Assembly (NCBI GenBank): GCA_002709915.1
Contig: PARF01000024.1
Location: 1-43,895, forward strand
DNA: 43,895 nt
Direction: 5' to 3'
Origin: Roseibacillus sp.
Lineage (GTDB): Bacteria; Verrucomicrobiota; Verrucomicrobiia; Verrucomicrobiales; Akkermansiaceae
In this document: positions 334 to 42,010 of the stretch, one piece after another
Layout of the letters: the number at the start of each line of letters is the position of its first letter
Numbering within the stretch: position 1 is the first letter of the stretch
Translations under genes and position numbers: made by a program
Notes under the pieces: model-generated
What the model saw: only the letters and a program-made list of their open reading frames with translations
What the model was told of the DNA's origin: nothing
Databases searched by the model: none

Positions 334-3300
334 ATGGCAAACGTGATCTCCCGGAAATTAAGGACGTCTGCAACACTCTGCGCGGCGCTTATCGCCTTGA
401 TGGTGTCTATGCCAGGACACCTCCAAGGGCAGCAGAAAGACCCTGCCCTCGATCTTTATTACCTCGCGACAGGAGCCTATAACCGGAAGCTCTATCCGGC
501 GGCGATAGGGGGATTCAAGGAATTCCTCCAGAAGCACGGCAATCATACCAAGGCAGACCAGGCCCGACAGGGGCTCGCTCTTAGTCTCTACGCACAGAAA
601 CAATACGCTGAAGCGATTCCCCTGCTGACCGCGCTTCTTTCCAAACCCAATCTGCCGAAAGAGGTTAGCCGGGACCGCATTATCCTGATGCAGGGGCAGT
701 GCCTCCTGCGAAGTGGCCAGAAAGATCAGGCCCGCGAGCATTTCATCAAGGAACAATCCCGCCTCCAGAATACTGTGTATAAGGCTTCTGCGCTGGCTGC
801 GATCTGCGACATCTACTTCGGAAATCGAGATTGGGATCAAGTCAACACGTGGGCGACCCAACTGGCTAAGGCCAAGCTCTCCTCGAATCAAGCGGCCCGG
901 GGCCTTTACCAGCAGGGATTCGCCAACTACCAGCTGAAGAAGTATCACGATGCTGCCGGGATTCTCGAAAAGGTCAGTCCCCTTGAAGCTGACGTGATCT
1001 GGAAAACCAGGGCCTCATACCTCCTCGGCGAGTGTTACACTGTTGTTAAAGACCATGAGAAAGCTGGGCCCGCATTTGAGGCCGCCCTGCCCGGCCTGAA
1101 GGGTTCCGATAAAACGGAGTGCCACTATCGACTCGGAGTCACCAGATTCATCCTCGACGACTGGACCGGGGCTGCGGAGCAGTTCGAAGCCTTCCTGAAA
1201 TCAGAGCCTTCCACCCGTCCTGAGGACCAGAAGAAAGAAAACCCTAAGATCAAGGAGTCTCAGCTCTACATTGGCAGGTGCCTTCTCGAGCAGGGAGAAT
1301 TCAATGAGGCCCGTAAAAGGCTGTCGAAGCTCACTAATCTTGACGGTTCTCTGGGGGCCAGAGCGAACCTCTGGTTTGCACGCGTATTTTCCCGACCGGT
1401 AAATCCCAATTACGACCAGGCTGCTGCTTCCCTTGAGCCCGCGGTCAAGAAATACCAAAACGTCACCCCGGTGAATGACGATCTGCGCTTTGACTATGCC
1501 AATGCACTGATGAGCCGCAACGAGCCCGACTGGAAGACCGCTGCAGAGGCCCTTGGAAGAATCAACGGTGGAGCCTTCGGACAGTTTGCGGAAGTTCTCG
1601 CCCAGAGAGCAACCTGCTACCACAAGCTCGGGGACTATAACAATAGCTTGAACCTTGCCAACGAGCACATCACCAAGTTCAAGGATCATGAGATGGCCGG
1701 AGACACTCGCTTTCTGCGGGCCGAGAACATGTTCCTTCTCAGCCAGGGTGATAATGCGATCGAAGCCTACAGGGAGTTCCTTGCCACCCATAAGGACCAT
1801 TCCAATGCCCTTGCCGCGGCATTCCGGATTGCCCAGATTCATCATCACCAGGGCCGCTGGGATCAATCCCTCGCTTCCGCGGGGCCCCTCCTTGCCAGCA
1901 AGCCGGAAGGCCCCTTATTCGCCCAATTGGCCTTCCTTGTCGGTAACTCACACTTCCAGAAGGAGCAGTGGAAGGAATGTCTCGAACCGCTGGAGGCGTT
2001 CATTGCCACTCGAGTCAAGAAGACCGGGAAAAACAACCAGAGGGTTTCCGCTGAGGCAAACGTCGATACCGCGCTGATCCAGCTAGCCGTCGCGTATGAC
2101 CGCGAAGAAGATTCTGCCAAGGCTCTCGAACATCTGGAAACTCTCACGCGCTTCTACCCTGGCACCACGCCGCACCTTCCTCTCGCTCTTGCAGAACAGG
2201 GGCGGCTCGCCTACGAGCAGGAGGACCTTTCGAAAGCCCGGCAGTCCCTTGAGCGCTTTCTCAACGAGGACAAACAAAACAAGGATCCCTTCAAGAGCGG
2301 GGCTCCTGCTCAAAGGCTCCGGGTAAACTATTTCCTGGGTTGGGTTAATGCCACCGAGAAAAAGCATGAGCCTGCCGTTCTGCACTTCGGGGAGGTGGCT
2401 AAAAATCAGCAGCACGAACTCGCTGCTGATGCAGCACTGCAACAGGGCCTTGCCTACATCCAGCTGGAGCAATTTGACAAGGCTGGAAGTCTCTTCCCTC
2501 AGATTCTTCAACGCTACCCCAAACATGAAAAACTCCAGCGCGTTACCTACTACGCTGGCCTCTCTCTGGCGCGAATGGAAAAATGGGGGCCTGCAGCAAT
2601 TCATCTGCGAAAGGTCGCAGACGCCTGGCCTGACTCTGAATTCGCCGATCAGGCCCTCTATGAATGGGCGTGGTGCGAGCGTAAGCAGAAAAAGGATGCC
2701 GATGCTGCCAAACTCTACGAGAGATTCCTGAACAAGTATCGGGAGAGCTCTCTGGTCGTGAAAGTCCAGAGTGAACTCGCGGAACTAAACCTGAAAAGTG
2801 GCGAGCAAGACATGGTGATCGAACGCCTCACCAAGGCTCTGGCCGCCGTGAAGGAGGAAGCCTTGCAGGAAGACCTCCGCTACCAGCTGGCTACTGCTCA
2901 TTTCAGTAAGGGCGACTATGAGAATTCTGCCGGAATGTTTGAAGAATTACTCATTAAGTATCCCGATTCCAAGCTCAGAGCATCCATGTGCTTTCAAGCT
3001 GGTGAATCCCGTTATAAGCTGAAGGAGACTGTGATCGCCTTGACGCATTTTGCGGAGGGAATGAAGCAGGACAACCTGAAGCCAGTCCTTGCCGAGTCCA
3101 TGCTGATGCGACTCGCGGAGATGCAGAGCAGCACTGCTGATCACCCCAGCGCTTACAAGTCCTACCGCAACTTCATCAACCGCTTTCCCGAAAGCAGGTG
3201 GAAGCGCAACGCCCAGTTTGGATTAGCGTGGTCACTGGAGAATTCTGACAAACCTGGCGAAGCCATCCGCAACTATGCGCCTCTTCTTGAGTCCGACAAG

Positions 3301-3588
3301 GTAGTCGACCTCTGGACGGTCCGGGCCCGGTTCCAGACCGGTGAATGCTATTTCAACATGCAAAAGTATGAGGAAGCGGTGAAGGAGTTTCTGAACGTGG
3401 AAATTCAATATAAAAAGTATCCCGCCTGGCAGGCCAAGGGCATCCTTGAGATTGGTCGTGTTCTTCTCGCCCAGAATAAGCGTGGGGATGCCAAGGAACG
3501 CTTCAAGGATGTCATCACTCGCTACCCCAACGAAAAAGCAGCAATTGTTGCGCGCCAGTATCTTGATCAACTACGCACCAGCGGATAA
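334..3588 (+). CDS. Large secreted tetratricopeptide-repeat protein (YbgF/CpoB/BamD-like TPR arrays)
   Basis: ORF 244..3588. The internal Met at 334 (MANVISRKLRTSATLCAALIALMVSMPGHLQGQQ) gives a good signal peptide. Many TPR-like helix pairs such as AAIGGFKEFLQKHGNHTKADQARQGLALSLYAQKQYAEAI. First gene of a same-strand cluster with exbB/exbD. Confidence 0.85.
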   Translation: MANVISRKLRTSATLCAALIALMVSMPGHLQGQQKDPALDLYYLATGAYNRKLYPAAIGGFKEFLQKHGNHTKADQARQGLALSLYAQKQYAEAIPLLTALLSKPNLPKEVSRDRIILMQGQCLLRSGQKDQAREHFIKEQSRLQNTVYKASALAAICDIYFGNRDWDQVNTWATQLAKAKLSSNQAARGLYQQGFANYQLKKYHDAAGILEKVSPLEADVIWKTRASYLLGECYTVVKDHEKAGPAFEAALPGLKGSDKTECHYRLGVTRFILDDWTGAAEQFEAFLKSEPSTRPEDQKKENPKIKESQLYIGRCLLEQGEFNEARKRLSKLTNLDGSLGARANLWFARVFSRPVNPNYDQAAASLEPAVKKYQNVTPVNDDLRFDYANALMSRNEPDWKTAAEALGRINGGAFGQFAEVLAQRATCYHKLGDYNNSLNLANEHITKFKDHEMAGDTRFLRAENMFLLSQGDNAIEAYREFLATHKDHSNALAAAFRIAQIHHHQGRWDQSLASAGPLLASKPEGPLFAQLAFLVGNSHFQKEQWKECLEPLEAFIATRVKKTGKNNQRVSAEANVDTALIQLAVAYDREEDSAKALEHLETLTRFYPGTTPHLPLALAEQGRLAYEQEDLSKARQSLERFLNEDKQNKDPFKSGAPAQRLRVNYFLGWVNATEKKHEPAVLHFGEVAKNQQHELAADAALQQGLAYIQLEQFDKAGSLFPQILQRYPKHEKLQRVTYYAGLSLARMEKWGPAAIHLRKVADAWPDSEFADQALYEWAWCERKQKKDADAAKLYERFLNKYRESSLVVKVQSELAELNLKSGEQDMVIERLTKALAAVKEEALQEDLRYQLATAHFSKGDYENSAGMFEELLIKYPDSKLRASMCFQAGESRYKLKETVIALTHFAEGMKQDNLKPVLAESMLMRLAEMQSSTADHPSAYKSYRNFINRFPESRWKRNAQFGLAWSLENSDKPGEAIRNYAPLLESDKVVDLWTVRARFQTGECYFNMQKYEEAVKEFLNVEIQYKKYPAWQAKGILEIGRVLLAQNKRGDAKERFKDVITRYPNEKAAIVARQYLDQLRTSG

Positions 3589-3618
3589 CCGAAAACCCCT
3601 CAATCAATCAGATTTCCC

Positions 3619-4386
3619 ATGACCAACTACACTACCAACCAATCTTGGAAAAAAGCTTTGGGCATCGCCGCCCTTTTCCTCATGGCCCTCACCACCTCGC
3701 TTCTCGCAGCAGAGGCCGGAGCAGATTCAGGCGTGGAAAAAGAAACCATGTTTTCTCTTATCAAAAAAGGGGGCCCAATCATGATCCCTCTCGGGATTGC
3801 CTCCATCATTGCGCTGGCCTTGGCCCTCGAACGCTTTATTTCCCTGCGGCGCGACAGGGTGCTACCTGACGGATTCCTCAGCGGTCTGGGGAACGCCTGG
3901 GATTCAGATCCTTCCGGGCAGACCGCAGAGCAGTATTGCGAGCAGAGCACGGGAAGCGCAGGACATGTTTTCAAGGCCGGTCTCCAGTGGCGAGATTCGG
4001 GCCATGAAGCAGTCGCCAAGGCCATCGAAGATGCTGGTATCCGTGAGGCAGACAAACTCAAGAGAAGCCTGCGTGGACTATCGATCATTGCTGCTGTTTC
4101 ACCCCTCCTCGGCCTTCTTGGCACTGTCTACGGGATGATCGACGCCTTTCAGCGCACTTCCCAGAGCGGCGGAGCCGCAAAAACCGCGGACCTTGCCACC
4201 GGAATTTATGAAGCCCTTGTGACGACAGCAGCAGGCCTCACCATCGCCATCCCGACTCTGCTGCTCTACCAGTTTCTGCAATCCAGGGTGGATAAGATCA
4301 TCGATCACATCGACGAAGTCGGAACCGACTTCATTGTCAACCACGCCAGAAAGAACAGCACTTCCACCGGTCCCGCAACATCCTAG
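3619..4386 (+). CDS. MotA/TolQ/ExbB proton channel family protein
   Basis: Motifs MIPLGIASIIALALALERF, LRGLSIIAAVSPLLGLLGTVYGMIDAFQ and ATGIYEALVTTAAGLTIAIPTLLLYQFL are typical of ExbB/TolQ. Confidence 0.95.
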   Translation: MTNYTTNQSWKKALGIAALFLMALTTSLLAAEAGADSGVEKETMFSLIKKGGPIMIPLGIASIIALALALERFISLRRDRVLPDGFLSGLGNAWDSDPSGQTAEQYCEQSTGSAGHVFKAGLQWRDSGHEAVAKAIEDAGIREADKLKRSLRGLSIIAAVSPLLGLLGTVYGMIDAFQRTSQSGGAAKTADLATGIYEALVTTAAGLTIAIPTLLLYQFLQSRVDKIIDHIDEVGTDFIVNHARKNSTSTGPATS

Positions 4387-4412
4387 GGATCAAAGACTAC
4401 CTAACTGAATCC

Positions 4413-4829
4413 ATGAGAATCCGAAGCAGGGACAACGAACAGGGTGAGATCATCAACATCTCAAGCATGATAGACGTCATGTTCATCCTCATCATTTTCT
4501 TTCTGGTTACCACTACCTTCAAAGAGGAAGAGGTCGATCACCTCGTCAAGCTTCCCGTGGAATCCCGTAATCAGTCGCTCACCCAGACTGCAGGAAACCT
4601 GATCAAGGTCAATATCCGGGATAATGGAGCTTATGTCGTGATGGGGCAGGCGGTGACTGAGGAAAAATTGACTGAGTGGATGCAGGAGGAGCGCGAAAAA
4701 AAACCTGAGATCAAGGTTCTCGTTCGTTGCGACAAGGAATCCAAGCACCTCTACCTCGCTAACGTGATGTCTATCTGTCGATTTGTGGGAGTTCCGGAGG
4801 CAAATATTGCGGTGCGGACTGAGAAGTAG
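4413..4829 (+). CDS. ExbD/TolR biopolymer transport protein
   Basis: Single TM with conserved Asp (ISSMIDVMFILIIFFLVTTTF), 138 aa, immediately downstream of the exbB homolog. Confidence 0.95.
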   Translation: MRIRSRDNEQGEIINISSMIDVMFILIIFFLVTTTFKEEEVDHLVKLPVESRNQSLTQTAGNLIKVNIRDNGAYVVMGQAVTEEKLTEWMQEEREKKPEIKVLVRCDKESKHLYLANVMSICRFVGVPEANIAVRTEK

Positions 4830-4841
4830 TGAGACCGGATT

Positions 4842-7250
4842 ATGAGCGACCAGCAGCCCATCCCCCAATCAGCGCACAAACAACAGCAAGATTACCTCCC
4901 CGGGGATATCAGAGAAGATCCTAACCCAGATCGGATGATTCTCGGGGTCACCAGGAAGCAGCGCTTCCGTCTCTATTTCTGGCTGGCAGCGGTTCTCGTT
5001 TCTGCATTTTTCCTCTGGTCTCTCTTTTATCTCAGGCCCGACCGCTGGTATACCTATACGGATCAGGTTGCCTTTAATCAGGTCGCCCGCGATGTGACCC
5101 CCGGATATGTCATATGGGAGAAGGCGGAGCCTGCCGGAAGCGGGTTCGGACCGGAAGAAGACATCGCTACTCCTGTGATCTCCTCGAATGGGGCACGCAT
5201 GATCTACAGCTCTGGGAAAGACGATGGCAACGCCAACCTCTTTTTGCGGGAATGGGACGGTAACGACTGGAAGAACCCTCGGCCCATGCGCGCTCTTAAC
5301 AGCGCCTTCCATGAGATATCGCCCTCACTGAGCGGCGATGGAGAACTGCTCTATTTCAGCAGCGACCGCCCCGGTGGACAGGGTGGATTCGATATCTGGG
5401 TCGCGAAGTGGGATGGCGCCGAATACGCATGGCCGCTCCCTCTGACACCACGGGTAAACACCCCCTTCGATGAAATCGACCCTGATATCGCTCCAGATAA
5501 CCTCGTTCTTTACTTCGCTTCCAATCAACCTCGCCGCGCGACTGACACCTCCGAAAAAGTAGCGGCAATGCTCGAAAACGTCGAAGACCGCAAGGGTAAC
5601 TTTGACCTCTACTCCGCCGACAAGGCTGGCGAGACTACCTTTGACCTCATCGTCGAGCGTCAGTTGAGCATGCTCTACTCGCTGCGAGAAAGTGCGCTTG
5701 CGGACCCCGAGGTCATGTCCAAGTTAGGCGGAAGCAAGCAAACTGAGAGCGCCGTCGACAAGGGTCTTGCCTTCCTCGCGGCTACTCAGGAAGAGGATGG
5801 TCGATGGGATATAGGTAAGTCTGGTGGGCAGAGCGGACACGACCAGGCAGCCACTGCCTTCGCTTTGCTCGCCTTCTACGGCCGAGGAGAAGTCCACGAT
5901 GAGGAATGTAAGTATCAAGATACCGTTAAAGGCGGGATCGAGTGGCTGGTCGGACAGCAGAACGGAGCAACCGGAGACCTTAGAGGCGCCAAACCAAGAA
6001 GTAACGCTATGTATGATCATGGGATTGCATCTCTCGCAGTGATCGAAGCGTATGGCGTGACCAAGGACGCAACGTTGCGCCCCAAGGCTCAGGCAGCCAT
6101 CGACTTTATCAGCGAGACCCAGCACGAGGGAGGCGGATGGCGCTATAGTCCAAATCAGGCCGGTGACCTTTCAGTCACCGGCTGGTACATCATGGCTCTT
6201 GCAAGTGCCGAAATGTCCGGACTCATCGTCCCGGACAAGACCATGGACGGAGCAACGAAGTTCCTCGACAGTGTCAGTCATGGTAAAAACAAGGGTGCTT
6301 ACGGTTATACTGGCGCGAGCGGAGGAACAGCGGCACTTAATGCAGCAGGGTTTTTCTGCTCCCAACTTCTCGGGCGATCCTCGAACACTGCCAAAGCGTA
6401 TGAATCTTCTGCCATCGTGGACCGTCAGGGTTTCAAACTGGAAGATATTTATCACGCCTACTACGGCAGCGTAGCCTCTTATCAGCATCAGGGACCAGCA
6501 TGGCGGAAGTGGATGGAAAAAATGCATTCAGGCTTCGTGAAATCTCAGAATCCCGATGGATCCTGGAAGACCGGTGGTGGACACGGCAGGCAGATGGGCG
6601 GGGTCATCGTTACTGCCTTGGTAACGCTGTGCCTGGAGGCACATTATCGCTACAGTCCCCTTTATGGACTGGGTTGGGAGCCAGACGCCGATGGCCCTAC
6701 GGGCACCAGCAGAGACCTTGCTGAGCTCGCCGAGACCCCCCTCTTCCGTCATGCCAGATTCCTCGAGGATGTCAGTTCCCCAGCCAACGATACTGGCCCC
6801 GTACTGACCGATCATGGTGACTTTCTCTATTTCGCCTCGGAACGAGGTAGTGGAGAGGGGGGATCGGATCTCTGGCGATCTCGCCTCGGGCGAACAGAGG
6901 CAAATAAGTATGGCCAGCCAAGCAACCTGGGGCCCGAGATCAACGGGGATGGCGATGAGACAAACCCTGCCGTTCGCAACGCCGGGTTCCACCTCCTCTT
7001 CAATTCCGATCGGGCCGACAACGGAAATGCACTTTACAGCGCTCGGAGCAAGCGCGTGGTGCGCCGTTTCGATCTTACCAAGATGCCGGACATGAACTGG
7101 ATCATGGGTAACCTCCTCTGGATTATTCTCCTCGTTACTTCTCTTACAGGCTTTGTCTGGCTCACCAGACGAGCCCTGTCAGCAGGCAAGCAAGCAGATT
7201 CCGCCCGCCTCCCTGAAGATCTGCCACCTGATCCAGCCTCCTCGCCCTAA
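4842..7250 (+). CDS. Membrane-anchored PD40 (TolB-like) beta-propeller protein with inserted squalene-cyclase/prenyltransferase-like alpha/alpha toroid
   Basis: N-terminal TM (FRLYFWLAAVLVSAFFLWSLFYL). PD40 repeats such as HEISPSLSGDGELLYFSSDRPGGQGGFDIWVAKWDG, then toroid-type repeats (AVDKGLAFLAATQEEDGRWD, FVKSQNPDGSWKTGGG), then further PD40 repeats (GPVLTDHGDFLYFASERGSGEGGSDLW) and a C-terminal TM. Confidence 0.85.
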   Translation: MSDQQPIPQSAHKQQQDYLPGDIREDPNPDRMILGVTRKQRFRLYFWLAAVLVSAFFLWSLFYLRPDRWYTYTDQVAFNQVARDVTPGYVIWEKAEPAGSGFGPEEDIATPVISSNGARMIYSSGKDDGNANLFLREWDGNDWKNPRPMRALNSAFHEISPSLSGDGELLYFSSDRPGGQGGFDIWVAKWDGAEYAWPLPLTPRVNTPFDEIDPDIAPDNLVLYFASNQPRRATDTSEKVAAMLENVEDRKGNFDLYSADKAGETTFDLIVERQLSMLYSLRESALADPEVMSKLGGSKQTESAVDKGLAFLAATQEEDGRWDIGKSGGQSGHDQAATAFALLAFYGRGEVHDEECKYQDTVKGGIEWLVGQQNGATGDLRGAKPRSNAMYDHGIASLAVIEAYGVTKDATLRPKAQAAIDFISETQHEGGGWRYSPNQAGDLSVTGWYIMALASAEMSGLIVPDKTMDGATKFLDSVSHGKNKGAYGYTGASGGTAALNAAGFFCSQLLGRSSNTAKAYESSAIVDRQGFKLEDIYHAYYGSVASYQHQGPAWRKWMEKMHSGFVKSQNPDGSWKTGGGHGRQMGGVIVTALVTLCLEAHYRYSPLYGLGWEPDADGPTGTSRDLAELAETPLFRHARFLEDVSSPANDTGPVLTDHGDFLYFASERGSGEGGSDLWRSRLGRTEANKYGQPSNLGPEINGDGDETNPAVRNAGFHLLFNSDRADNGNALYSARSKRVVRRFDLTKMPDMNWIMGNLLWIILLVTSLTGFVWLTRRALSAGKQADSARLPEDLPPDPASSP

Positions 7251-7259
7251 CGCAGGCAG

Positions 7260-10200
7260 ATGGCCATGTCCGAACCAGAAAAACAAAGATCCGAAGAGGT
7301 CCCGGTAAGTAAGGCGCGTTGGCTCCTGCCGCTTGCCTCGCTTGCGGTGATGCTTGGAATCGGCCTCCTTCTCCACGGAAAACTACGGGACGAAATCTGG
7401 TCTTACTTCACGGACGATCAGGGAACCCGTGTGGAAGTTCAGGACGGTAAGGAGCGATATATCCTCTGGCAGGACCCCAGGCAGAACCTCTTTGAAGAAC
7501 AAGGATCCACCGTGGGGCCGGATCCCGTCAACCAGGCCTCGGAACGCCTTGAGGCGGCCTTCTCTCCTGATGGTATCAGGATGATTCTTGTCCGCAACGA
7601 TCCCGAGACTAATCGGGCCGACCTCTACCAGTCGACCTGGAACGGAAGAATCTGGACGCGTCCTGCCGGCATGGCATCCCTCAATACCGCATCCAACGAG
7701 CGAGGCCCCGCCTTCTCCCACGACGGAAAATATCTCTATTTCAGCTCTGACCGCGAGGGCGGTCAAGGAGGTGATGATATCTACGTGGCGCGCTGGGATG
7801 GCCACAAATGGACAGGGGTCATGGCCCTCGGAACCACGATCAACTCCCCTGCCCGGGAAACTGGACCCGCTCCCACCGCTGACGGTAAGCGACTATACTT
7901 TTCCTCCAACCGCGCTGGTGGAAATGATATTTTCGTGGCGCAGCGCCTAGAGGAGGCACCCCTCCTCGTTTCGAAACCTGATGGAGAGCAGGCTCTGGAA
8001 GCCGACAGCGAGAGAGCTTCAGCACAGACGAAGAATACCTTAAGGGACTCGGCGGCCCCGCCACTTCCCCAGTTCGGAAACGCAAACGCAGCCGGCAATC
8101 TCAACTCCAGTGCCGAGGACCTTCAGACCGCCCTTACACAGCAAGGAGATCATGTCTTTCTCGCCTCGGACCGTGACCGTAGTAATGAAATCGGATTCGG
8201 GGTCTATTTCAGTCGTGTCATCGATGGGGAAGCTCTTCCCCCGGAGCGGGTCGATCTGTATCTGAATGAGGGAAATGTTACCGATCCTGCGGTCCGGATG
8301 GAAGGGTTTGATCTCCTTTTCAGCACGAAGCCCGAAGTTGAATCTGGGAACGCGGGGTTCAAGCTCTACCGTTCCACCACACGGGAGGTAGTTGGCTACA
8401 CCAGTCTTGAGCGGTGGGAATCCTTCAAGGAGCTCATGGAGGACATCGGGTGGTGGATCCTCCTTGGCCTTCTTGCCCTTGCCGCTCTTCCCTACCTTCT
8501 GGAAAGCTGGCAGGACCTCACCAATCTCTTTCATAAGTGTCTTGCCGGCTCGGCTGCAGTCCATCTCGTCATTCTCCTGCTTCTCATGGTCTGGCTCATC
8601 GCAAAGGAGGTAGGAGGTGAGGAGCCTCAATCACCAGAAATCACAGTCAGTATAGAGGCCCTCATGGAGGAGGAAATTGCTCTTGAAAGCGAACCCGAAC
8701 AGGCCGAAATCGCAGAGACCAGGGAACTCGTAATGACGGAGAAGTTCGAAAGCGACTTTAAGATTCCAGTCTTTAGACCAGAGGAAAACACCAAGGTGGT
8801 GCCCGTTGTAACGCAAACCTCCCGTTCTTCTCTGGTTCCAAGTGTTCGTCCCTCCAGACTCAACGAATCCGAATCCGAACAGGAGCAGACTCAGCCCACC
8901 AAGGAACTCAGCGTTCTGACCGCTCTGCCCGAGACCTTTCTCCCTGAGCCTGAAGACCCGACCCTTGAGGAGGAACAGGGGACCGACCAGCAACTCGCGG
9001 AAAAGCCCGCAGATCCCGCGGATGCAGAGTTCAAGCCCACGGAATCACTGGATCAGGTGCAACCTGAGCAAGCCAGAGAGCGCGCCATCGCGGACACCGC
9101 AGTCGAAAACGAGTCCGAGGTAAGGGATGTCTCTCAACCCGATGCGGCGCCAGAGACTACCGACACCGGTGGCGACACCGTCAATCCACATCGCGGCCTC
9201 GAAGCCCTTGGGGTTCCTCCCGAACTCGATGGAGCCGGCGACGCGATCACCAACCTGCTCAACCTCCCCGGAGATGGTCAGACCAATGATCCTCTCCTTC
9301 CTGATAAGCTGGCAACCCCCAAGAATGATCTCGATGCCCGGGCTATCACCAAGCTCATGACCAAGCGCCGGGGGAGACCATCGCCTGAGACCATCGAACA
9401 ACTGGGAGGTTCAGATGCCACCGAGCGCGCCATTGGCGCCGCTTTGGAATGGCTTGCCCGCAATCAGGAGGGAGATGGCCGCTGGGACATGCGCAAACAT
9501 GGAGCCAATGGAGACTTCGATACCGCGGGAGCCGGACTGGCTCTCCTCTGTTTCTACGGCTGGGGAGAAACACACAACAAGGGAGGAAAGTATCAGGACA
9601 ACGTCAAGCGAGCCCTAGAGTGGCTTCTCAAGCAGCAGAAGGAAGATGGAGATCTACGGGGAGGAGGACGGATGTATTGCCATGGGATTGCGGCCATCGC
9701 TCTTTGCGAAGCCTATGGGTTTACCAAGGATCCGAAGCTGAAGGAGCCTGCCGAGAGGGCTATCGCGCTTATCGTCGCATCACAGAGCCCCAGCAAAGGT
9801 GGGTGGCGCTACAATCCTGCCAATTCACAGGGCAAGCCGAGTGACGACTCTGATCTTTCCGTGACCGCCTGGCAGTATATGGCTCTGCACAGCGCGCGCC
9901 TCGCAGGGCTGGAAGTTTCCGACGAACCCTTCATAGGAGCCCAGAAATACATGACCTCGGTGTCCTCCGGAACACATGGCGGACTCTATGCTTACACGGG
10001 AGGAGGCCCCAACCCCGCCATGACCGCCAGTGGGATGTTCTGCCGGCAGCTGGACCTCGTTCCTCCTACAGACCCCCGCATGGCTGAGGGCGCCGAATAC
10101 CTTGGGCGTCACAAGTTCAACAACAATCCGGATTACTATTACGTCTACTACGCGACCTTGGCTCTCTACCAACATCAGGGGCCTGTCTGGAAGGAATGGA

Positions 10201-10415
10201 ACGACAACCTCAAGGATACCTTTCCCCGGATCCAGAACAAGATCGGTATTAACCGGGGGAGCTGGGATCCGGGCGGCCGGCATGCCAATGCTGGAGGCCG
10301 TGTGGTCTCCACCACCCTTTCGGTCCTCAGTCTGGAGGTCTACTACCGCCTCCTGCCCATGTATGGATTCCGGGGCGCAAGGGACTTGCCTGACGCCAAG
10401 AAGAGAGGGCAGTAG
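7260..10415 (+). CDS. Membrane protein: PD40 beta-propeller, TM pair including a TonB-like helix, acidic linker, C-terminal squalene-cyclase-like toroid
   Basis: Paralog of the upstream gene. N-terminal TM, PD40 blades (NERGPAFSHDGKYLYFSSDREGGQGGDDIYVARWDG), TM WWILLGLLALAALPYLL, TM SAAVHLVILLLLMVWLIAKEVG, Glu/Pro-rich linker, then AIGAALEWLARNQEGDGRWD...SLEVYYRLLPMYGF. Confidence 0.85.
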   Translation: MAMSEPEKQRSEEVPVSKARWLLPLASLAVMLGIGLLLHGKLRDEIWSYFTDDQGTRVEVQDGKERYILWQDPRQNLFEEQGSTVGPDPVNQASERLEAAFSPDGIRMILVRNDPETNRADLYQSTWNGRIWTRPAGMASLNTASNERGPAFSHDGKYLYFSSDREGGQGGDDIYVARWDGHKWTGVMALGTTINSPARETGPAPTADGKRLYFSSNRAGGNDIFVAQRLEEAPLLVSKPDGEQALEADSERASAQTKNTLRDSAAPPLPQFGNANAAGNLNSSAEDLQTALTQQGDHVFLASDRDRSNEIGFGVYFSRVIDGEALPPERVDLYLNEGNVTDPAVRMEGFDLLFSTKPEVESGNAGFKLYRSTTREVVGYTSLERWESFKELMEDIGWWILLGLLALAALPYLLESWQDLTNLFHKCLAGSAAVHLVILLLLMVWLIAKEVGGEEPQSPEITVSIEALMEEEIALESEPEQAEIAETRELVMTEKFESDFKIPVFRPEENTKVVPVVTQTSRSSLVPSVRPSRLNESESEQEQTQPTKELSVLTALPETFLPEPEDPTLEEEQGTDQQLAEKPADPADAEFKPTESLDQVQPEQARERAIADTAVENESEVRDVSQPDAAPETTDTGGDTVNPHRGLEALGVPPELDGAGDAITNLLNLPGDGQTNDPLLPDKLATPKNDLDARAITKLMTKRRGRPSPETIEQLGGSDATERAIGAALEWLARNQEGDGRWDMRKHGANGDFDTAGAGLALLCFYGWGETHNKGGKYQDNVKRALEWLLKQQKEDGDLRGGGRMYCHGIAAIALCEAYGFTKDPKLKEPAERAIALIVASQSPSKGGWRYNPANSQGKPSDDSDLSVTAWQYMALHSARLAGLEVSDEPFIGAQKYMTSVSSGTHGGLYAYTGGGPNPAMTASGMFCRQLDLVPPTDPRMAEGAEYLGRHKFNNNPDYYYVYYATLALYQHQGPVWKEWNDNLKDTFPRIQNKIGINRGSWDPGGRHANAGGRVVSTTLSVLSLEVYYRLLPMYGFRGARDLPDAKKRGQ

Positions 10416-10470
10416 GAGAAGTCCTCACACAGAGGCTTCCCCTGCATGAACGCGGTATCGAGCCTCGCGC

Positions 10471-11121
10471 TTAGTGCGCCTTGACCTTGATATTGCGTAC
10501 CCAGAACGGCTGTCCGTGATCTTGGATCGCAATCTTCCCCTTCTCAGCCAGCTTCTTGTTGGGACGCTTCTTGCCCACAAGATCCAGTCCATCCTGAACC
10601 TTCTTCCCGTTGAGAACCACGGTAAGCTTGTTGTCCTTGAGGGTCACCACCATCCGATTCCATTCACCTGGCTTCTTGGCGGCATTGACAAGCGGCCCCG
10701 CGGTCTGAATCACACCACCCAGGTCGTGCGGCCCGAGCTTCTTCTTTCCGAAACAGTCGAGGATCTGCACTTCGAAGCCGTGCGCGGTAGCATCCGACTC
10801 GTCATAGATGCGAAAGTAGAGACCGGAATTTCCACCCTTGGGGTGCTTATACTCGAAATCGATGGTGAAGTCCTTGTAATCCTCCTTGAGCCACAAGTAG
10901 GACCCATAACGCGTCCAACCCCTCTCACCCGGACGCGGATCGAGGTAGAGAGACCCATCCTCCTGGATTTTCCAGTTTCCCTTCGTCTTGATATTGGAGA
11001 GGTCCTTCCCGTCATAGATGGTCTTGAACTCGTGGTGGTCGGCTAGGACACAGGTCCCCGGGATAAGAGCGGCAACAAGGGCGAGAAGAACTGGTTTCAT
11101 GATCCTTCGAGCTAGCAACAA
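10471..11121 (-). CDS. DUF1080 (3-keto-disaccharide hydrolase-like / LamG-fold) secreted protein
   Basis: Signal peptide, then FKTIYDGKDLSNIKTKGNWKIQEDGSLYLDP and YKDFTIDFEYKHPKGGNSGLYFRIYDESDATAHGFEVQILD, typical of DUF1080. Confidence 0.88.
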   Translation of the reverse strand: MLLARRIMKPVLLALVAALIPGTCVLADHHEFKTIYDGKDLSNIKTKGNWKIQEDGSLYLDPRPGERGWTRYGSYLWLKEDYKDFTIDFEYKHPKGGNSGLYFRIYDESDATAHGFEVQILDCFGKKKLGPHDLGGVIQTAGPLVNAAKKPGEWNRMVVTLKDNKLTVVLNGKKVQDGLDLVGKKRPNKKLAEKGKIAIQDHGQPFWVRNIKVKAH

Positions 11122-11345
11122 ATCCGTGAGCCCCGAAAGCAGAAACTGCCCCCCGATCCGATGACAGAGAGCGAAATCCGCTGTCTTCCCTAGCCTTATT
11201 CTAGTCCCACGTGGCTCTCATGGTTCTACTCTCTTTGGCCCCATCTCTGACCGGGTGGGGAAACCCCGCCCCGGATGCCCCAAAAGTGCTCTCCTGACAA
11301 TCCTTTGCCGCCAGTCTACCTTCTGGAATTGAGGAACCTACGCTC

Positions 11346-12587
11346 TCAGGATCCAAAGGACCAGAGAGTGAGCCGATTGAGGTCCTTGATAAGAATCTTG
11401 CTGTCGAGAAGGACCGGGGGAGCCCAGGTCTGGTCAGGGGCCACCCGGTAGACCGCCCGGGCCTGGTAAGCCGCCGGGTCAGCCGCAATGATGCGGAGCT
11501 CCCCATTGGCCCGGAGGGCCGCCACATGACCCTCGAGGGCGAGAAAGGCCACGTTCTGCCCAACCCTCCCTTCACTGAGCCAGCGGATCGTCCCATCCCG
11601 GGGATCGAGACAGAAAATCTGCCCCATCTTGAAATGTGACATTCCATAGAGGTGATCCCCGTTGATGACCGCCGTGCTCATGTCGAGTGCCACCTTGCGC
11701 TGGTGCCAGAGGCGGTTCACCGACCACTTGCCGTCCTTCAGGAGAGGCTCCAGGCACTTGATGCCCCGGTTCTCTCCCCCGAGCAGGATCCGTCCCTTAT
11801 GGAAGACTGGCGTAGGCATGTTCTGATTATGACTCCGGTGGGGGGCGGGATACTCCCAGAGCAACTTCCCGGTCCTGCTTTCCACTCCTACAAGGGCCTC
11901 ATGGTTCCACTGCACCACCTGTCGCACTCCCGCGATCTCCACAAGAAGCGGTGAGGAATACGAGGTGCCATGCTCCCCCTGCTTCCACACTTCCCGGCCC
12001 GATTTCACGTCAAAGGCCATGAGCGCACCCGCCTCGTCATTGCCGAGGTGCACGATGAGGCGTTCCCCATCCACGATGGGCGAGGTGGAGACGCCCCAGT
12101 TGGGCTGGTTTCCCTTCTCCCACTTTCCCCGGTAATCCTTGCGCCAGAGCAGGCTGCCACTTTCCACGTCCCAGGCGTGGATCATCCCGGTGATACTCAG
12201 AGTAAAAAGGCGGCCATCGGCCATCACCGGACAGGACTTCGGACCTTTCCCATGACGCTCTCCTCCCCCTCCAATCTTGAAAGGGTTCGGGTAACTCTTG
12301 CGCCAGATCTGTTTTCCACTCGCCAGATCAACACACCAGACCACCTCTTCTTCTCCCTGGCGGGCATGTTGGTAGACCCGCTGCCCCTCGACCAAGGGCG
12401 TGCCGTAGCCTGCTCCAACCTCTACGCTCCACTCCTTCTTCAATTGTTTCGGCCAACGGGCCGGAATCTTGAAATGCTCTACCCAGCCGTCACGATGGGG
12501 ACCCAGCAGCCCGGACCACACCAGTTCGGCAGCAGGGGCGAATGGAATGAAGAGCACTGTAAGTGCGAGCGTAAGGAAAGGTCTCAT
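11346..12587 (-). CDS. PQQ-binding-like (BamB-type) beta-propeller secreted protein
   Basis: Signal peptide and repeats such as VVWCVDLASGKQIWRKSYPNPF, HAWDVESGSLLWRKDYRGKWE and MAFDVKSGREVWKQGEHGT. Confidence 0.88.
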   Translation of the reverse strand: MRPFLTLALTVLFIPFAPAAELVWSGLLGPHRDGWVEHFKIPARWPKQLKKEWSVEVGAGYGTPLVEGQRVYQHARQGEEEVVWCVDLASGKQIWRKSYPNPFKIGGGGERHGKGPKSCPVMADGRLFTLSITGMIHAWDVESGSLLWRKDYRGKWEKGNQPNWGVSTSPIVDGERLIVHLGNDEAGALMAFDVKSGREVWKQGEHGTSYSSPLLVEIAGVRQVVQWNHEALVGVESRTGKLLWEYPAPHRSHNQNMPTPVFHKGRILLGGENRGIKCLEPLLKDGKWSVNRLWHQRKVALDMSTAVINGDHLYGMSHFKMGQIFCLDPRDGTIRWLSEGRVGQNVAFLALEGHVAALRANGELRIIAADPAAYQARAVYRVAPDQTWAPPVLLDSKILIKDLNRLTLWSFGS

Positions 12588-12719: not shown

Positions 12720-13400
12720 ATGATCAGGAACGCCCTGGCCCTCCTCTCACTCGTTCTCACGGTTCTTCCCCTCGCACAAGCCGGTGAGTTCGAGGACCTC
12801 TTCCCCAAGGACGGTATTCCCAAGGGCTGGGTGGTGCGAGCTTGGTCTGATGTCTCAAAGCCGGGCCCAGAGGGCGCCCAATGGGTGGTAGAAAAGGGAG
12901 TCCTGAACGGAGGCGGAGCCCGGGGATCCTGGCTGATCAGTGAAGCGGAATACTCTGACCTCGAATTGCACTTCGAGTTCAAGCTCGGTCCCCAGGGAAA
13001 CAGTGGTTGTGCCCTGCGCTCTCCGGTCTCTGGAGACCCGGCCTTCGACGGCTTGGAGTTACAGATGGCAGACTATCGCTACAATACCAAAGCCACGGAG
13101 TCCGAACTGACGGGGGGAATCTACCGCGCCCTCCCACCCAGGAAGCAGGTCTACAAGCCGGAAAAGTGGAACCGCTACGAGATCAGCCTTACTGGGTCGC
13201 AGGTCAAAGTTGTCCTCAACGGAACGGTGATCCTTGATCATGACCTTTCAAGGGAAGATACCATTATCAAGAGGCACAACGGCAAGGATGCTCCGGCGCT
13301 CCGGGATCGTCCTCGCAAGGGCCGTATCGGCTTCCAGAACCTCAGCCGTGGAGGCTCCCCCGTCCTGATCCGCAACGCTCGAATCAGGACGGCAAAGTAG
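12720..13400 (+). CDS. DUF1080 family secreted protein
   Basis: Start placed at 12720 (MIRNALALLSLVLTVLPLAQAGEFEDLFPKDGIPKGWVVRAW), where a signal peptide begins. The track ORF 11970..13400 has a non-coding-like N-terminal extension. YSDLELHFEFKLGPQGNSGCALRSPVSGDPAFDGLELQMAD fits DUF1080. Confidence 0.85.
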   Translation: MIRNALALLSLVLTVLPLAQAGEFEDLFPKDGIPKGWVVRAWSDVSKPGPEGAQWVVEKGVLNGGGARGSWLISEAEYSDLELHFEFKLGPQGNSGCALRSPVSGDPAFDGLELQMADYRYNTKATESELTGGIYRALPPRKQVYKPEKWNRYEISLTGSQVKVVLNGTVILDHDLSREDTIIKRHNGKDAPALRDRPRKGRIGFQNLSRGGSPVLIRNARIRTAK

Positions 13401-40717: not shown

Positions 40718-42010
40718 ATGAGCATCGACTCGCGCTATACATGGGATTCCCTCAGATCCAGAGAGGGCCGCGATCCGAGTTCGCGCCGTCGGAGATTCGG
40801 ATTCTGGGTCCTCCTGTCAGTTACGGGGGCTGTAATCCTCCACGTCGTGGGCCTTTGGGCTCTCGGAAAGTTTAATCTGCTTCTCGAGCTGGCCGATTTC
40901 GAATGGAGCTCCCAGACTTTTCACGTCAGCGAAACACATGAACTTCCTGCAGACGCTATAGCCCCTGCTCCTGATACTCAGGATTCTACTCCTCCCGCCA
41001 GTGCTGAAACTCTGCTCACTGAAATCGAGGAGCTTCTTCCTGAACTGGACGATTTGGAGATCGATATTCTCCCTGAGCTCGAAAAACCCGAGGTCTCTCT
41101 GGAACCACTCCGGCCGGCCAGATTAGGAGAAGAAAATGCTCCCTTGCTAGAGCCCTTGAAAGCCCCTGAAGTACAAGCCACTCTGGCAAACTTGGGACGC
41201 AACGAACCGCTCTTCACCGAAGTCCCGGAAGGACGCGTTGTTATTGAGGAAGGGCGCATCACCGCAGACCTTCCGGATCCCGACTCTTTTTTGAAGGATG
41301 CGGCCCTCCGTGGCGCCAATGGTTTGGACGAGAACGGGCTCCTCGAAGGCTACACTGAACTCGGGCGCTACCTCAGTTTTGATGTGGATCAGCTGGATCA
41401 GGGAAGAGCCGCCCTGCCAAGTGACCTCCTGTTTGAATTTAACGAGAACGAGCTCAAGCAGAACGCCCGCCTTGGGCTCATGCAGCTCGGCATGCTGATT
41501 GATCGAAATCCCAAGATGTATTGTATTCTCGAAGGACATTCCGACCTGTTCGGAACCGAGTCCTACAATATCGAACTTTCACGCAAACGGGCAATGGCCG
41601 TAAAAAACTGGTTGGTTCGCTCACTCGACCTCGATGGAAGCCGCATTATTGTCCGGGCTTATGGCCACGCCAGACCCAAGGTCCTCACCGGCGACCCGAA
41701 AGCACAGGCCATCAATCGCCGGGTTGATATTCTGATGCGTAAAACCGTTCCACCACAGGAAGCTCTTCCGGTCCGAGTAACGCCTTCCGTGGCTCTCCCG
41801 GTCGCACCCGACCCCCAAAAACCGGCCATCCCGCCAAAAGCCCTGCCAGTTGAGGAGGACATTCAGCCTCCCCCTCCGCCACCAGCCGAAGAGCTGCGCG
41901 AGCCTCCTCCCGCTCGCGCAATTCCCATTGAAGAGGCGCCACCCGCTCGAGCAGTCCCCATTCCGGAAGTGGGCCCCTCCCCGCCAGAAGAGCCAGTCCA
42001 AAACCCCTGA
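40718..42010 (+). CDS. TonB-like N-terminal TM protein with OmpA peptidoglycan-binding-like domain and Pro-rich C-terminal tail
   Basis: TM FWVLLSVTGAVILHVVGLWAL, acidic/Pro linker, OmpA-C domain (DLLFEFNENELKQNARLGLMQLGMLIDRNPKMYCILEGHSDLFGTESYNIELSRKRAMAVKNWLVRSLDLDGSRIIVRAYGHARP...NRRVDILM), tail PPPPPPAEELREPPPARAIPIEEAPPARAVPIPE. Confidence 0.85.
   Translation: MSIDSRYTWDSLRSREGRDPSSRRRRFGFWVLLSVTGAVILHVVGLWALGKFNLLLELADFEWSSQTFHVSETHELPADAIAPAPDTQDSTPPASAETLLTEIEELLPELDDLEIDILPELEKPEVSLEPLRPARLGEENAPLLEPLKAPEVQATLANLGRNEPLFTEVPEGRVVIEEGRITADLPDPDSFLKDAALRGANGLDENGLLEGYTELGRYLSFDVDQLDQGRAALPSDLLFEFNENELKQNARLGLMQLGMLIDRNPKMYCILEGHSDLFGTESYNIELSRKRAMAVKNWLVRSLDLDGSRIIVRAYGHARPKVLTGDPKAQAINRRVDILMRKTVPPQEALPVRVTPSVALPVAPDPQKPAIPPKALPVEEDIQPPPPPPAEELREPPPARAIPIEEAPPARAVPIPEVGPSPPEEPVQNP

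Follow-up and report, generated by a model that had tools for sequence, protein, structure and literature searches.

A stretch of 43,895 nucleotides of contig PARF01000024.1 from Roseibacillus sp. (Verrucomicrobiota), hereafter the window, carries a five-gene operon that probably encodes (probability about 0.7) an envelope-spanning, force-transducing machine of the Ton/Tol superfamily, driven by the proton motive force. The genes encode, in order, a secreted tetratricopeptide repeat (TPR) protein, an ExbB-family and an ExbD-family motor protein, and two large membrane proteins referred to here as A and B. Protein B is best read as a transducer of the TonB/TolA type in which an alpha/alpha-toroid takes the place of the C-terminal domain typical of such proteins, and whose chain also includes a TolB-like propeller tethered to the membrane. 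Motor machines of the Ton/Tol type are a kind already known; the architecture appears to be a new variation. A proton-driven envelope device had been proposed in an earlier note on this DNA, and that proposal, with an ExbB/ExbD motor, a TonB/TolA-like helix and a toroid head, is supported.

General features of the operon

All five open reading frames (ORFs) were confirmed on the plus strand over positions 334-10415, with intergenic gaps of 30, 26, 12 and 9 bp (Table 1), which verifies the same-strand block with gaps of 9 to 30 bp described in the earlier note. A Pfam scan of the five proteins found TPR repeats, MotA_ExbB and ExbD domains, and PD40 repeats in A and B (2e-27 and 4.8e-24), along with weak, sub-cut-off matches of both large proteins to SQHop_cyclase. 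A and B are paralogs, 44% identical in their toroids and 37% in their propellers, with different domain orders; Pfam, alignment and structure models agree with the earlier description of both as joining a PD40 propeller to a squalene-cyclase-like toroid. The source genome is 3.6 Mb in 93 contigs; among named relatives the closest, 96% identical across the core of gene B, is a Roseibacillus metagenome-assembled genome (Verrucomicrobiota). A scan for promoters and terminators found a number of sites not above that in shuffled sequence.

Table 1. Features of the operon, in window positions.
Feature	Position	Strand	Evidence
TPR-solenoid protein, secreted, 1084 aa	334..3588	+	ORF, Pfam TPR families
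ExbB/TolQ-family motor protein, 255 aa	3619..4386	+	MotA_ExbB 1.5e-31
ExbD/TolR-family motor protein, 138 aa	4413..4829	+	ExbD 1.4e-25
Gene A, 802 aa: transmembrane helix, TolB-like propeller with inserted alpha/alpha-toroid, C-terminal transmembrane helix	4842..7250	+	Pfam, 25-sequence alignment, AlphaFold, Foldseek
A toroid, helices 267-603	5640..6650	+	Secondary structure of AlphaFold model
Gene B, candidate force transducer, 1051 aa	7260..10415	+	Pfam, helix inspection, alignments
B PD40 propeller, between TM1 and TM2	7437..8399	+	PD40 4.8e-24, alignment A1
B TM3, TonB/TolA-like motor helix	8544..8600	+	104-homolog alignment
B Glu/Pro-rich linker	8613..9329	+	Composition; lengths from locus coordinates
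B D-box (motor box)-like strand	8637..8663	+	Conserved segment in alignments
B C-terminal alpha/alpha-toroid	9330..10394	+	Alignments A2/A4, AlphaFold, Foldseek

Motor and TPR proteins

The ExbB and ExbD proteins have the features of the motor family, namely Pfam domains above cut-off, the pore aspartate and intact pore-helix segments, of which LLGLLGTVYGM and ALVTTAAGLTIAIP of ExbB are conserved in the alignment. The pore residue of ExbD, Asp21 (nt 4473-4475), aligns with Asp25 of E. coli ExbD. The NCBIfam equivalog cut-offs were missed for tolQ (93.2 against 221), exbB (64.3 against 206.2) and tolR (51.6 against 127.3).

The TPR protein has a signal peptide by inspection, with no lipobox cysteine seen, and its gene stands first in nearly all related loci. 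It gave no match to TolA_bind_tri (PF16331) in the Pfam scan and is far longer than the short CpoB/YbgF; its NCBIfam score for tol_pal_ybgF is attributable to the many repeated TPRs.

Protein B as a candidate force transducer

Protein B consists of a first transmembrane helix (TM1, residues 22-40), the propeller, TM2 (392-410), TM3 (429-447), a long linker and the C-terminal toroid. With three crossings and the N terminus inside, propeller and toroid would both lie in the periplasm. TM3 resembles the motor helix of TonB and TolA and contains SAAVHLVILLLLMVWL, with Ser431 and His435. His435 is invariant in a 22-sequence alignment, where position 431 is Ser in 18 sequences and Ala in 4; among 104 homologs the histidine is present in 103, as is Ser or Ala four residues before it (103/104). 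The single row without His (L208) is perhaps misaligned, because an A-x3-H occurs nearby. TonB and TolA engage their motors through the SHLS motif (Williams-Jones et al. 2025, PMC12204202).

At 26 residues past His435 lies a strand, ITVSI, that is conserved across the B family; the segment containing it, EITVSIEAL, resembles in pattern the TonB D-box peptide QPISVTMVTPAD, which binds ExbD via strand addition (PMC10907165). The linker is very variable in length, with about 240 residues here and, from coordinates, up to about 930 in relatives. Pfam detected no TonB_C or TolA C-terminal domain in B, where the toroid is found instead, and no VWA domain in either A or B.

In the proposed machine, ExbB and ExbD would form the inner-membrane motor, and B would dock on it twice, through the Ser/Ala-x3-His of TM3 on ExbB and through the D-box-like strand on the periplasmic domain of ExbD. 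The disordered linker would pass force to the toroid, which may grip a partner across the periplasm, whether a protein, the cell wall or a glycan. This partner may be positioned or regulated by the TPR solenoid in the periplasm and by the propeller, which TM1 and TM2 anchor to the inner membrane. Our best guess is a task at the outer membrane or cell wall; it could lie in tethering the envelope or in handling macromolecules.

Several observations weigh against this interpretation. The SHLS motif is only half kept in B homologs, with Ser and His conserved and Leu and the second Ser not, and the motor helix is N-terminal in TonB and TolA, whereas that of B is placed after the propeller and two other helices. 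The strict alternating five-position rule for a D-box is passed by only 38 of 80 sequences, so the D-box assignment is suggestive. The operon encodes no outer-membrane partner. Lastly, in a survey of 57 named loci, 15 of them cut by contig ends, 13 had a two-gene TPR-B form with no motor alongside, so that some copies must borrow a motor or are not energised; since several genomes hold both the five-gene and the two-gene forms (e.g. L126 with L152, L168 with L158), the latter may share a motor.

It is also conceivable that A and B are passive membrane scaffolds sharing an operon with the motor by chance, a view that the lack of a motor helix in A would fit. This is very unlikely, as Ser/Ala-x3-His is near-universal in B and is kept even where the propeller or the toroid has been lost.

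The toroid head

The AlphaFold model of the B toroid (371 residues) has a pLDDT of 84.7 and a pTM of 0.85. Its top Foldseek matches are single-toroid squalene-hopene-like cyclases (8paj) and GH76 mannanases, at a TM-score of about 0.6 that denotes fold-level similarity only, and other glycan enzymes are also among the fold neighbours. Squalene-hopene cyclases are reached by toroid sequence profiles at 1e-9. The toroid is strongly conserved, with a mean column identity of 60%, and therefore serves a specific function; many of its aromatic residues are invariant.

The earlier note had raised the possibility that the head acts catalytically on a lipid or hopanoid, and the toroid might indeed be an enzyme (a terpene, hopanoid or other lipid cyclase) to which ExbB and ExbD are incidental, as the remote similarity to squalene-hopene cyclases, the match to 8paj and the high conservation would allow. 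We consider this extremely unlikely. The structure 8paj (MstE, a single-toroid class II terpene cyclase) shares the alpha/alpha-toroid fold with the B head, but the DxDD motif is missing from all 48 toroid sequences, which makes terpene or hopanoid catalysis unlikely and rules out such an enzyme as the main explanation of the operon. Moreover, a TM-score of about 0.6 is common to many unrelated toroids, the head is tethered by a long linker after a TonB-like helix and closely coupled to ExbB/ExbD, and the predicted topology puts it in the periplasm. Given the loss of the cyclase motif, the head more likely binds a ligand than catalyses a reaction. A complement-like thioester toroid (CGEQ in 0 of 48 sequences) and GH76-type catalysis (DD pair in just 4 of 48) were likewise ruled out.

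As a narrower role for the force-transducing machine, the toroid and/or the propeller may bind a large polysaccharide that the motor pulls or for which it opens a port, thus serving glycan uptake or handling. The glycan enzymes among the fold neighbours, including the GH76 mannanases, and the many invariant aromatics are in line with such a role, as are the sulfatase-like genes beside some TPR-B loci (L075-L077). However, sulfatases are common in these genomes, which makes their adjacency weak evidence, and the invariant Trp and Tyr are possibly structural in toroids; the operon has no gene for a TonB-dependent receptor or SusCD-like protein, and two-gene loci of the window's genus (L068, L069) have different neighbours. 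Altogether, this role seems quite unlikely.

Seven more toroid genes occur elsewhere in the source genome, so these bacteria make common use of the fold. In three loci away from ExbB/ExbD (L011, L013, L014), toroid proteins of about 490-525 residues have a transducer-shaped look, with an N-terminal transmembrane helix, a conserved SPTIVAY strand and a Pro/Gly-rich linker, but lack the helix His.

Protein A

In the AlphaFold model of A (pLDDT 73, pTM 0.72) the toroid sits inside the propeller, with strands 90-262 before it and 635-738 after it, strands 255-261 and 635-640 bordering the insertion. Foldseek searches with this model returned toroid structures, plus TolB (1c5k, 4r40) for the propeller part, and inspection of hydrophobic helices found no motor helix. 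Gene A is present in Verrucomicrobiales/Opitutia loci and absent from L108, L109 and L118. The Planctomycetota loci examined lack it, except for two close to the window's locus (L180/G521 and G643), which may reflect mis-binning or transfer. Protein A, the product of a lineage-specific duplication that has no motor helix, is probably an accessory ligand holder.

Distribution and modularity

ExbB and ExbD directly precede A and B in identical order in 29 of the 57 named loci, and every complete Verrucomicrobiota relative found retains the five-gene order. The propeller-helix core was found in 13 of 388 sampled Verrucomicrobiota genomes, one truncated copy counted, and full-length B-like matches in 7 of 60 genomes of the family. 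In Planctomycetota, the phylum of G521, matches of some kind occur in 49 of 294 genomes, and many of these are to the propeller alone; the loci examined there follow the order TPR-ExbB-ExbD-B, most with a toroid, and represent a one-transducer form. The arrangement is far beyond chance, because no complete related locus lacks it and Planctomycetota have it in a form without A; the synteny that the earlier note proposed to look for thus extends outside the source genome. A quick tree permits coarse statements only, since it wrongly drew in L159, L166 and L175, gene A sequences that share a single long branch. In it the 20 Planctomycetota sequences are set apart together by one branch (SH-aLRT 86), and on the strength of this grouping the system appears to be of ancient origin in both phyla.

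What stays constant across variants of head and propeller is the motor helix. Helix, linker and toroid are kept in L193, L194 and L209, where the propeller is not recognised, and L110-L117 keep propeller and helix, but their C-terminal tail is short and no domain was recognised in it. Head swapping is seen in L112, L113 and L219, the head of the last being CarboxypepD_reg-like. Such lineage-variable heads are the pattern predicted by a transducer with exchangeable heads, and a constant motor-helix core with swapped heads suggests a modular family.

Proteins neighbouring ExbD in L195 (ORF 7007-11797) and L196 have an N-terminal VWA domain and a mid-protein Ser-x3-His helix; that of L195 ends in a DUF4159 domain, which adds to the kinds of head seen on proteins linked to the motor. 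By eye, the TPR-B loci L075, L076 and L077 also lie beside large secreted planctomycete genes of the DUF1501/1553 kind, in addition to the sulfatase-like ones.

Relationship to known machines

The closest published class is that of the vWA transducers, which occur in the Planctomycetes-Verrucomicrobia-Chlamydiae group and other bacteria beside TPR, tolQ-like and tolR-like genes (PMC12204202). They resemble B in having an SHLS-type helix with an essential His, of which B homologs keep Ser and His, a disordered or Pro-rich linker with a motor box, represented in B by the D-box-like strand, and a C-terminal head unrelated to TonB/TolA. The vWA transducers carry a vWA head and one helix, whereas the head of B is a toroid and its motor helix comes after a PD40 propeller and two additional helices; in addition, the locus described here has one ExbD gene and an extra toroid-propeller protein (A). 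The vWA transducer paper makes no mention of a toroid, PD40, squalene or prenyl domain. A literature search among open-licence papers found no description of a toroid transducer or of this gene set.

With TonB-ExbB-ExbD the locus shares the motor family, the Ser-x3-His helix, the D-box-like strand and the Pro-rich linker; unlike that system, it has no TonB_C domain or receptor in the operon, and its head and propeller are different. Elsewhere the genome has one TonB_C gene (contig C48), four TonB-dependent receptors and five other ExbB-family loci, and a domain search found no TolB_N domain in the operon or the whole genome, implying that the machine is additional to the Ton system. The PD40 repeats have their best NCBIfam matches, below cut-off, among PD40-OmpA proteins of the PorE/CHU_0125 type; unlike these, A and B have no OmpA domain by Pfam and do have inner-membrane helices.

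The Tol-Pal system (TolQRAB-Pal-CpoB) has in common with the locus the motor, a TolA-like helix, a TolB-like propeller fold and a TPR protein. It differs in having TolB_N, Pal and the TolA C-terminal domain, and in the propeller, which here is tied to the membrane and forms one chain with the transducer. TolB itself is soluble and combines TolB_N with a C-terminal propeller, and only the propeller fold of the proteins described here resembles it. The earlier note had suggested looking for a classical Tol-Pal locus elsewhere in the genome; the domain search gave no TolB_N there, and a classical Tol-Pal reading was rejected on this ground.

The machine could have the narrower role of a lineage-specific replacement of Tol-Pal, in which the propellers act as TolB, B as TolA and the TPR protein as CpoB, holding the outer membrane to the wall in division. 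Such a replacement would agree with the genome lacking TolB_N, with the Foldseek matches of the propeller to TolB, with the TolA-like helix of B and the TPR gene in the operon, and with a separate helix/OmpA-domain protein encoded in the window (40718-42010). However, the distribution reported above is too sparse and patchy for a housekeeping Tol-Pal role, and the operon has no Pal gene. The one-to-one analogy with CpoB, TolQ, TolR and TolB drawn in the earlier note also holds only loosely: ExbB and ExbD score under the TolQ and TolR cut-offs, the TPR protein is without the CpoB trimerisation domain, and TolB_N is missing. On balance, a Tol-Pal replacement is unlikely.

In the protein at 40718-42010, a single N-terminal TonB/TolA-like hydrophobic helix (SVTGAVILHVVGLWAL) is followed by an acidic/Pro-rich linker and an OmpA domain (6.1e-14), with a Pro-rich tail at the end; the protein may be a further transducer or an inner-membrane tether resembling Pal.

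Other ExbB-ExbD loci and neighbouring genes

Large TPR genes are also present in two other ExbB-ExbD loci of the source genome, L079 and L081 (contigs C27 and C88). In L081 the ExbD gene occurs twice, as in published vWA loci, but a scan of two of its neighbours revealed no VWA domain. A further ExbB-ExbD operon (L080, 5810-8251) encodes a TolA/TonB-like protein of 407 residues with an AVILH helix and no Pfam match, beside a peptide-deformylase-like gene. Just downstream of the operon in the window are genes for two 3-keto-disaccharide hydrolase-like proteins (10471-11121 and 12720-13400) and a PQQ-propeller protein.

Implications

The operon may, more tentatively, belong to a distinct and ancient class of proton-driven machines of Verrucomicrobiota and Planctomycetota, in which a TolB-like propeller and a TolA-like transducer form one polypeptide with interchangeable heads and perform a task specific to these bacteria, e.g. 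moving macromolecules across the envelope. If the proposed force-transducing machine is real, the toroid would join TonB, TolA and vWA as one of the few known heads of force transducers, and the propeller and transducer of a Tol-like machine could form a single chain. It would also provide a testable gene set for the energisation of the outer envelope in Planctomycetota and Verrucomicrobiota, which is poorly understood.

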